Positions 36,822 to 63,471 of a stretch of 64,000 bases of DNA are shown here, one piece after another (the first letter of the stretch is position 1; the number at the start of each line of letters is the position of its first letter). The notes beneath the pieces were generated by a model. That model saw only the letters and a list, made by a program, of their open reading frames with translations. It was not told the DNA's origin and did no database searches. Both the position numbers and the translations under genes were made by a program. Source of the stretch: Paenibacillus sp. FJAT-29882 (GTDB lineage Bacteria; Bacillota; Bacilli; Bacillales; DSM-1321); NCBI RefSeq assembly GCF_001510645.1, contig NZ_LMVB01000001.1:887854-951853 (forward strand), given 5' to 3'.

Positions 36822-37010
36822 GGTGTCTAGCTACTACAGCGCCTAGCCCCTCGAGGTCAAATGTCTTCAACAAAGGAAGTTAAAGTGCGAACTTCCTTTG
36901 TTGGAGAGCATTTGCTTGTCGGGCTTGCACAGGATGTGCTGACTTCAACGTTCGCCACAGGACGTGGCGGATTTTAGTTGAAGTTCCTAAAAAGGCGCTT
37001 TCGCTTTTCT
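36822..37010 (+). repeat. Family E repeat (GTCTAGC...GGCGCTTTCGC type)
   Basis: The element starts GTGTCTAGCTACTACAGCGCC and TAGCCCCTCGAGG, and ends AAAAAGGCGCTTTCGCTTTTC. Similar sequences are very common in Bacillaceae intergenic DNA as I remember it. Inside are a perfect-looking hairpin AAGGAAGTT...AACTTCCTT and a module, TTGCACAGGATGTGCTGACTT, that occurs inverted in C2. It ends 3 bases before the mltG ribosome-binding site. Confidence 0.7.
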
Positions 37011-41334: not shown

Positions 41335-41512
41335 TGTTCAAAAAGTCCGGTAAAAATAGCTGTCGAATTGCATCAAAGCTCATTAATGAACTTCTGTTAA
41401 AACCGCGCACGTCCTGTGCGCAACACAGAAGTCAGCACATCCTGTGCAAGTCCGGTCCTCACGAGATGCGCTCCTCGAACTTCCCGGCTCTTTTTATCCT
41501 CCTTTTTGAACA
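41335..41512. repeat. Family C MITE-like repeat, copy C2
   Basis: 178 bp bounded by TGTTCAAAAAGTCCGGTAAA and CTTTTTGAACA. It shares with C1 the blocks CTTCTGTTAAAA-CGCG and CGGCTCTTTTTATCCTCC. It also holds AAGTCAGCACATCCTGTGCAAG, which is the reverse complement of a module in family E. Confidence 0.85.
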
Positions 41513-62423: not shown

Positions 62424-62495
62424 GAAAGGGGTCTGTCCGGTCAGACCCCGCAACGACTCTATACTGTGTATAGAGTACGAGGTCAGACCCTTTGG
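62424..62495. repeat. Family A palindromic repeat, copy A10
   Basis: GGAAAGGGGTCTGTCCGGTCAGACCCCGCAACGAC...GAGGTCAGACCCTTTGGGG: one arm is duplicated, giving GGTCTG-TCCG-GTCAGACC as a separate small hairpin. The spacer includes CTCTATACTGTGTATAGAG, a perfect stem. Confidence 0.85.
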
Positions 62496-62538
62496 GGATA
62501 TCTTCTTCTCGGCTACTAAAAGTGAAAAAGGGGAATGT

Positions 62539-63117
62539 ATGTTGAATCGAATTAGTTGGAATCAATATTTTATGGCGCAAAGTCATTTATTAGCATTAAG
62601 AAGTACATGTACAAGATTAGCGGTTGGCGCAACGATTGTCCGTGATAAACGAATCATTGCCGGTGGATATAATGGTTCAATCGCTGGTGGCACGCATTGC
62701 ATCGATGATGGCTGCTATGTGATTGATAATCATTGTGTCAGGACGATTCATGCGGAGATGAATGCGGTTTTACAATGTGCCAAGTTCGGTGTACCGACTG
62801 AAGGCTCTGAAATTTATGTCACACACTTTCCTTGCTTGCAATGCTGTAAATCATTAATACAAGCGGGAATCAAGGCGGTTTATTATGCAAAAAATTATAA
62901 AAACCATCCTTACGCTATAGAGCTTTTCGAGCAAGCGGGTGTTACAGTTGAACAGGTTTTAACAGAGGAAATCATTGACCTAAAAGGTAAGGAAAAACAA
63001 AATCTTGTTGCTGATTTATTAACCGCACTGTCAGAAGCTGGCGGTTCGATTGAACGAGTGAATGAACTTCAGAAACAGGCAGAACGACTATTTTTATCCC
63101 GCATCAACGGGCAGTAA
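62539..63117 (+). CDS. comEB: dCMP deaminase family protein ComEB
   Basis: ATG 62539 with AAAAGGGGAATG upstream gives 192 residues. The zinc deaminase motif is complete: HAEMNAVLQCAKFG with the catalytic Glu, and PCLQCCKSLIQAG with the two Cys ligands. It begins MLNRISWNQYFMAQSHLLALRSTC, as in dCMP deaminases. In B. subtilis ComEB has been reported to help place ComGA at the cell pole. It is separated from comEC by 354 bp, whereas they overlap in B. subtilis. Confidence 0.95.
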   Translation: MLNRISWNQYFMAQSHLLALRSTCTRLAVGATIVRDKRIIAGGYNGSIAGGTHCIDDGCYVIDNHCVRTIHAEMNAVLQCAKFGVPTEGSEIYVTHFPCLQCCKSLIQAGIKAVYYAKNYKNHPYAIELFEQAGVTVEQVLTEEIIDLKGKEKQNLVADLLTALSEAGGSIERVNELQKQAERLFLSRINGQ

Positions 63118-63120
63118 TAC

Positions 63121-63345
63121 CCCCATCTCAAGGCTTCGAGGAATCGAAGAAGCGTAGGTGGAGAATAAAAGCCCGATTGGTGAGATACAGTGAAACTTAC
63201 CGATGCGTGAGCAGAGGTTTAGTTGAACCAATCGGGTTCGTAGAGTCGATTTATCGAAGCGGAGCGGAGATAGTAGCGACTCTAGAACGGGACTAACAAT
63301 CAGCAGGGGATGAAGAACCCCCCCACTGATTGAAGTTTCACTTTA
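63121..63345 (+). ncRNA. Orphan omega-RNA / HEARO-like structured element
   Basis: About 225 bp form at least four hairpins: CTTCGAGGAATCGAAG (63136-63151); CCCGATTGGT...AACCAATCGGG (63172-63238) holding GTGAAACTTACCGATGCGTG; TAGAGTCG...CGACTCTA (63241-63283); AATCAG-CAGGGG-ATGAAGAA-CCCCCC-CACTGATT (63297-63331). The end GAAGTTTCAC follows. The GAAGAACCCCC hairpin and GAAGTTTCAC close resemble right ends/omega-RNAs of IS200/IS605-related TnpB or IscB (HEARO) elements. No nuclease or transposase gene accompanies it. It was inserted between comEB and comEC. Confidence 0.6.
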
Positions 63346-63385
63346 TTAAAAAAAGATGGAGAGTGACTAAAAATTAAAAAGGGGA

Positions 63386-63442
63386 AAACGACAACTTTGA
63401 TTACATGATTCGGATCACTTTGGACGAGATACCCCTTTTTAG
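63386..63442. terminator. Possible hairpin before comEC
   Basis: AAAAAGGGG...CCCCTTTTT pair across a loop of about 40 bases, with T-rich sequence after. It could end readthrough RNA from the inserted element. Confidence 0.4.
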
Positions 63443-63471
63443 TCTTCTTCTTTTAAGTTGAAGGAGGCCTT

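Follow-up and report, generated by a model that had tools for sequence, protein, structure and literature searches.

The DNA at the comEB-comEC junction of Paenibacillus sp. FJAT-29882 carries one copy of a non-coding interspersed repeat, TTTAT-CCCGCATYAACGGG...GAAGTTTCAC-TTTAT, at positions 63093-63346 of the window (the whole stretch analysed, 64,000 bp), and we are confident in reading it as a non-autonomous, non-coding mobile repeat of a bcr1-like TTTAT family. The genome holds well over 100 copies, a point missed by an earlier account drawn from the letters of the window (hereafter the sequence-only reading), in which the same DNA figured mainly as an orphan guide RNA; its kind, the non-autonomous mobile repeat, is an ordinary one. 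A non-autonomous transposon had been that account's alternative, and it is borne out by many copies with the same ends, an empty site in relatives and a TTTAT at both edges.

The window's copy measures 254 bp with both TTTAT counted (Table 1). It opens with TTTATCCCGCATCAACGG (63093-63110), within the coding end of comEB, and closes with GAAGTTTCACTTTAT, the last base of which is 63346. The bounds first proposed, 63121..63345, fall short on both sides, the true left end lying 28 bases further left, at 63093, and the right end at 63346. With up to three mismatches allowed, the left-end motif has a single match in the window, against a mean expectation of 0.03. Pfam analysis of four neighbouring proteins identifies a deaminase, a ComEC protein, a helix-hairpin-helix/SLBB protein and a P5C-reductase-like protein, the first three of which we take to be encoded by comEB, comEC and a comEA-like gene. 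The statement that no nuclease or transposase is attached holds for these four proteins, none of which is of either kind.

Table 1. Features of the repeat and its flanking genes, in window coordinates.
Feature	Position	Strand	Remark
comEB, dCMP/cytidine deaminase family, PF00383	62539..63117	+	Pfam
left TTTAT	63093..63097	+	target site; single in empty site
left end CCCGCATCAACGGGCAGTAATAC	63098..63120	+	source of new comEB tail and stop
repeat body, 200-271-bp length class	63098..63341	+	
inner structured module	63182..63290	+	missing from 157-bp class
inverted near-copy of right end, TAAGTTTCACTGTAT, 2 mismatches	63185..63199	-	predicted pairing with right end
terminal hairpin GGGG-ATGAAGAA-CCCC	63299..63331	+	compensatory stem changes among 157-bp copies
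right end GAAGTTTCAC	63332..63341	+	
right TTTAT	63342..63346	+	
comEC start, PF13567	63472..63999	+	Pfam

The genome comprises 5.32 Mb in 21 contigs. A BLAST search of it returned at least 61 matches to the repeat, a lower bound because 40 of the 300 first-look candidates were scored, and pattern searches located the left-end motif 180 times (up to two mismatches; none in the control) and the right-end motif 275 times (up to one mismatch; three in the control). Regions were fetched around 38 BLAST matches and 20 pattern matches. Aligned by their ends, nearly all copies start with TTTATCCCG and finish with CACTTTAT, and the sequence beyond them varies from one copy to the next. When the ends were sought without TTTAT, an exact TTTAT stood on either side of 42 of the 47 distinct copies in this genome and 59 of the 71 in other species. 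A selection bias has to be allowed for: the pattern used to fetch the other-species loci, and 20 of the 58 own regions, contained the left TTTAT, and for the own regions alone the right TTTAT formed part of the BLAST query or pattern (the query behind the 38 BLAST regions included the right TTTAT and stopped short of the left one). Conservation ends sharply on both sides, with 1.56-2.0 bit of information within TTTAT and at most 0.35 bit outside it.

The history of the insertion can be read from relatives of the same genus. Of 35 such relatives, 29 were read at the comEB-comEC junction, and all 29 are without the element, the nearest matches being right-end-like words with two mismatches far upstream in two of the loci (L105, L106). 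The closest relative, G018, whose comEC fragment is 90% identical, provides the empty site that the sequence-only reading had suggested looking for: it reads ...GACTATTTTTATTAAAAACAGATGGAG..., with one TTTAT, where our genome reads ...GACTATTTTTAT, then the element body, then TTTATTAAAAAAAGATGGAG...; the second close relative, G017, has TTTCTATTAAAA at the corresponding place. Since the empty site holds one TTTAT and the filled site two, one became two, which shows that the repeat inserted at a TTTAT and that the TTTAT count rose from one to two. These observations weigh heavily against a regulatory RNA element conserved in the competence operon, a notion for which the sense orientation between comEB and comEC speaks: an element missing here from every relative read, and with the same ends at well over 100 other sites, is scarcely credible in that role.

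The insertion changed the end of comEB and brought in a new stop. The C-terminus of ComEB is LFLSRINGQ in our genome, compared with LFLLKTDGD in G018 and LFLLKTDGV in G017, so that the last residues, SRINGQ* in place of LKTDGD* and LKTDGV* in these two closest relatives, are supplied by the repeat, and the stop codon at 63115-63117 is itself repeat sequence. The effect at this junction is probably near neutral, a few C-terminal residues of ComEB being swapped and a hairpin spacer added to the mRNA. The idea that the repeat splits two normally overlapping genes does not apply to this genus: among 27 measurable relatives, comEB and comEC are separated by 9-25 nt in 22, overlap by 4 nt in one and lie 45-278 nt apart in four, two of which (L085, L110) rest on partial comEB alignments (L108 and L109, where the comEB stop was misread, are left out of this count). 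A second spacer, AAAAAGGGG...CCCCTTTTTAGTC, lies at 63371-63470 between the repeat and comEC; its length and inside vary in the two closest relatives, and the junction may therefore be a hotspot for small inserts. Just upstream of comEB, at 62425-62510, stand the words GGGGTCTGTCCGGTCAGACCCC and GAGGTCAGACCCTTT, with similar words near two other loci (L022, L045); they are perhaps another interspersed repeat.

Copies fall into length classes with common ends and differing insides. Pairing of ends by script yielded 61 elements in our genome, ten of 51-55 bp and the rest of 97-182, 200-271, 301-381 and 433-529 bp. The 529-bp pair, in L022, was discarded as a chance pairing of right and left motifs at the mismatch limit, so that the longest class consists of seven copies of 433-520 bp and the copies as a whole range from 51 to 520 bp with common ends and a variable inside; one further copy, in L034, measures 368 bp on recheck and not 410. 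The ten minimal copies of 51-55 bp contain little beyond the two ends, the 157-bp class carries two long hairpins, and the window's copy follows the 157-bp plan with the addition of an inner module at about 63182-63290. It is without ten bases (CAACTGCCCG or nearly so) of the right arm of the left hairpin that are present in most of alignment A2. The inner module recurs at full length in Peribacillus huizhouensis (L167, 83%) and Neobacillus massiliamazoniensis (L134, 76%), and the 171 loci compared contain these two full-length and two partial matches in other species. The Bacillaceae-1 RNA (RF01690) matches above cut-off ten times in the eight loci that carry the longest copies, at two recurrent places, as if one repeat nested in another. 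Some long copies are without the Bacillaceae-1 module at one of these two places. The window itself has RF01690 matches above cut-off at 36926-36993 (minus strand) and 41381-41448 (plus strand), scoring 67.4 and 63.6 bits.

The two ends of the repeat differ and are not inverted repeats of each other, only 4 of 23 positions agreeing when left and right ends are compared in that way. A classical MITE moved by a DDE transposase, with TTTAT as target and a 5-bp duplication, would account for the TTTAT that is single in the empty site and double in the filled one, and for high copy number together with internal deletions; with unlike ends and no terminal inverted repeats, we find that origin rather improbable. 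In two loci (L117, L143), copies directly adjoin another right end and have a TTTAT-like junction in common, and an existing end may thus serve as the target for the next copy.

The repeat is strongly folded. The chain of hairpins described in the sequence-only reading, with its GGGG-ATGAAGAA-CCCC stem and the GAAGTTTCAC that follows (63332-63341), is present, and its predicted fold surpasses all 200 shuffles both as RNA (63091-63365, z -6.14) and as single-stranded DNA (63080-63365, z -5.52). Comparative evidence was obtained from alignment A1, which takes copies of 148-162 bp from L054-L073, L112-L191 and L311 with identical ones removed. In the resulting 39 distinct copies of 148-161 bp (five from our genome, 34 from other species), 97.8% of cells pair and 11 of the 30 pairs have changed on either side, values that none of 500 shuffles reach. 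When partners are slid by 1-3 columns, 35.6-55.6% of cells pair and 1-6 pairs have changes on both sides, although the structure was derived from the same alignment and is therefore expected to beat its slid versions. The structure has thus been maintained across genera through compensatory changes. There are 29 G.T cells to 11 A.C cells (p 0.006, one mostly-G.T pair left out and kinship not corrected), an imbalance that speaks for the top strand as the one that folds, the fold itself being derived from the top strand.

A structured top strand is also what would be expected of an orphan omega-RNA of TnpB or IscB, working in trans with a distant nuclease and reading its guide from the DNA to the right of 63345. 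Six TnpB genes are present in the genome, and the right end may resemble IS605 right ends, the sequence-only reading having associated it with right ends of TnpB/IscB elements. The covariance comparison proposed for this reading gave no match to HEARO or any other omega-RNA in Rfam up to E 10; the sole match was a 10.7-bit snoRNA far below cut-off, in a collection that may lack most TnpB omega-RNA models, and the eight long-copy loci were likewise free of omega-RNA matches in Rfam. A look for copies elsewhere beside tnpB had also been suggested: copies there are, well over 100 of them, but repeat ends bound none of the six TnpB loci. The only clear copy at these loci is a separate minimal element of about 54 bp some 1.1 kb downstream of one tnpB (L052), and the right-end matches with three mismatches at two others (L048, L051) look like chance. 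Copies of 51-55 bp, little more than two ends, also speak against such an RNA, and the DNA to the right of TTTAT is almost unconserved, an observation that alone would equally fit a guide. On the Rfam comparison, at the gathering cut-off and at E 10, and on that of the TnpB loci we rejected the omega-RNA, and we regard it as extremely improbable.

The repeat extends well beyond the genus. Exact left ends occur in at least 114 stretches, of which 80 loci are listed, on contigs with the genus labels Lysinibacillus, Psychrobacillus, Peribacillus, Domibacillus, Sporosarcina, Cytobacillus, Neobacillus, Filibacter, Rummeliibacillus, Terrilactibacillus, Priestia, Gottfriedia, Fredinandcohnia and Bacillus. 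A survey of the order found left ends in 71 of 397 genomes and 38 of 135 genera, with one control match, and more than ten copies in 13 of the 397 genomes, from ten genera (hereafter high-copy genomes). Distribution within the own genus is patchy, with 110, 148 and 51 copies in genomes G000, G017 and G018 and 0-8 in the other 33. One contig labelled Modestobacter (L128) holds a single minimal copy of 54 bp and is probably contamination, and a Klebsiella grimontii plasmid (CP079755.1) has a partial match to the repeat. A phage search gave no match to the repeat. Among 56 viral stretches with the exact 15-base right end, only four (L276, L281, L290, L309) resemble element ends by eye. Six viral contigs (L311-L316) carry the repeat at one common site, two as a 158-bp and four as a 99-100-bp form, a difference that amounts to an internal deletion in place. 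At this site the repeat is followed, 172 bases downstream, by a gene whose Gly/Cys-rich peptide product we take to be heterocycloanthracin-like, and in L316 a protein encoded 1.8 kb from it is 97% identical to one named Bacillus cereus.

Single-strand transposition by HUH enzymes is characterised by a fixed target, different ends and hairpins next to the ends. By analogy, the features of the repeat (fixed target, unlike ends, end hairpins and no gene) match this mode, and our best guess for the mobilising enzyme is a Y1 (HUH) transposase acting in trans. The repeat would move as folded single-stranded DNA, which the transposase would recognise in trans and cut at the TTTAT of either end, as in IS200/IS605-derived PATEs or in REP/RAYT systems. 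We put the chance of a Y1 mechanism at about even, and the boundaries are explained just as well by an enzyme of another class that duplicates 5 bp of a preferred target. That a site-specific recombinase or an RNA/cDNA intermediate underlies the movement, with TTTAT as crossover or priming site, is consistent with the TTTAT at both ends, with a folded structure that shows strand preference and with the copies directly adjoining another right end (L143, L117); we consider this route unlikely, while keeping it in mind.

Genome content provides a weak association with the Y1 candidate. Y1 proteins are present in all 13 high-copy genomes and in 280 of the 384 others (Fisher p 0.018, kinship not corrected), and RAYT, with a presence threshold of E 1e-10, in 11 of 13 and 221 of 384 (p 0.043, kinship not corrected), both associations with high copy number being weak. 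Two high-copy genomes, G120 (114 copies) and G238 (20 copies), have no RAYT match at E 1e-10 and do have IS200-type TnpA, a type found in several high-copy genomes besides our own; in two more (G371, 2e-14; G411, 2e-18) the RAYT match is weak. Given the weak association and the exceptions G120 and G238, RAYT was rejected as a needed partner and is kept as a candidate only. The sole Y1 protein found in our genome is a single-copy RAYT (L047; NF047646, 88 bits, cut-off 80) whose nearest named relative is that of Peribacillus loiseleuriae (87%), a kinship that puts the window within or close to Peribacillus. The RAYT match of G017 (L076, G017:C10:25396-25994) comes in two pieces in different frames, and since it is split between frames the gene may be broken in this genome, which has the most copies in the genus sample.

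Eight RAYT loci, that of our genome included, have no clear repeat end within about 1.5 kb on either side, and an element or right end lies within 1 kb of a RAYT-like gene at 2 of 10 loci from high-copy genomes (L238, L245). In G262 and G284 (80 and 115 copies), TTTAT stands at the start of what is common to the sequences of an IS605-type tnpA element. A search for an autonomous element with the ends of the repeat gave no pairs 700-5000 bp apart in fetched loci over 1.2 kb. A lagging-strand bias was seen as 28 to 10 in replication orientation among 38 copies located by BLAST (p 0.005; those on C17 and C19 left out); the larger set of 93 pattern-found left ends (100 of 180 listed, minus seven on C4, C5 and C17, which have no skew samples) gave 51 to 42 (p 0.41), without such a bias.

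These results replace a false lead, the orphan guide RNA, with a well-bounded mobile repeat, and repeats of this kind explain altered gene ends such as that of comEB here. If the link to bcr1 is true, a repeat so far ascribed to the B. cereus group alone spans many genera, and its mover can be tested for by comparing high-copy genomes with repeat-free neighbours. The interest of the repeat rests on its wide range, its modular inside and the question of its mover. As a broader and tentative proposal, possible but short of probable in our view, the copies may form a folded, strand-specific family spanning genera, with bcr1 as no more than its B. cereus branch, moved in trans in REP-like fashion by a chromosomal Y1 enzyme (RAYT or an orphan IS200-type TnpA) cutting TTTAT on both sides, with modular, RNA-like inner parts that would be able to host further repeats such as Bacillaceae-1.

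Among known systems, PATEs are comparable in lacking genes and inverted repeats, in having unlike ends with hairpins close by, and in their short fixed target. The present repeat differs from them in that no autonomous IS with matching ends was found in the fetched loci and in that the larger set is free of a strand bias (51 to 42); the single Y1 locus of our genome is not bounded by repeat ends. REP/RAYT systems share with our genome the combination of many short folded repeats and a single-copy RAYT; here, however, the RAYT is not flanked by repeats, and some high-copy genomes have no RAYT. The Bacillaceae-1 RNA (RF01690) is a hairpin module found inside long copies of the repeat, but it is a separate module of 67 bases that is absent from the window's copy.

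The closest likeness is to bcr1, which is said, going by the title of a 2004 report by Okstad, to be specific to the B. cereus group. In the literature on bcr1, RAYT and TnpB/PATE, from a search with most subscription journals outside its scope, we found no description of these repeats outside that group. Published reports describe bcr1 as having a TTTAT motif and 11-130 copies per genome (PMC6542083) and a length of 147-167 bp (PMC2267715), and in two B. cereus strains 40.0% and 50.9% of the bcr copies are reported to lie inside mRNAs (PMC3446304). Compared by description, the two repeats are alike in having TTTAT at both ends, a hairpin fold, no gene and tens to more than 100 copies, and the 157-bp class is similar in size to bcr1 (group A, bcr1-bcr3). 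The present repeat differs in having classes of 51-55 bp, about 250 bp and 433-520 bp besides, and in occurring in many other genera where bcr1 is called B. cereus-group-specific; left ends in 38 of 135 genera exceed such a restriction, a matter of range and not of kind. The same ends are also found at 158 bp in contigs among L311-L316, one of which has a gene named Bacillus cereus. Since the repeat is spread over many genera of the Bacillales, and is present on contigs matching B. cereus, we read it as a probable relative of bcr1 and class the family, by description, as bcr1-like.
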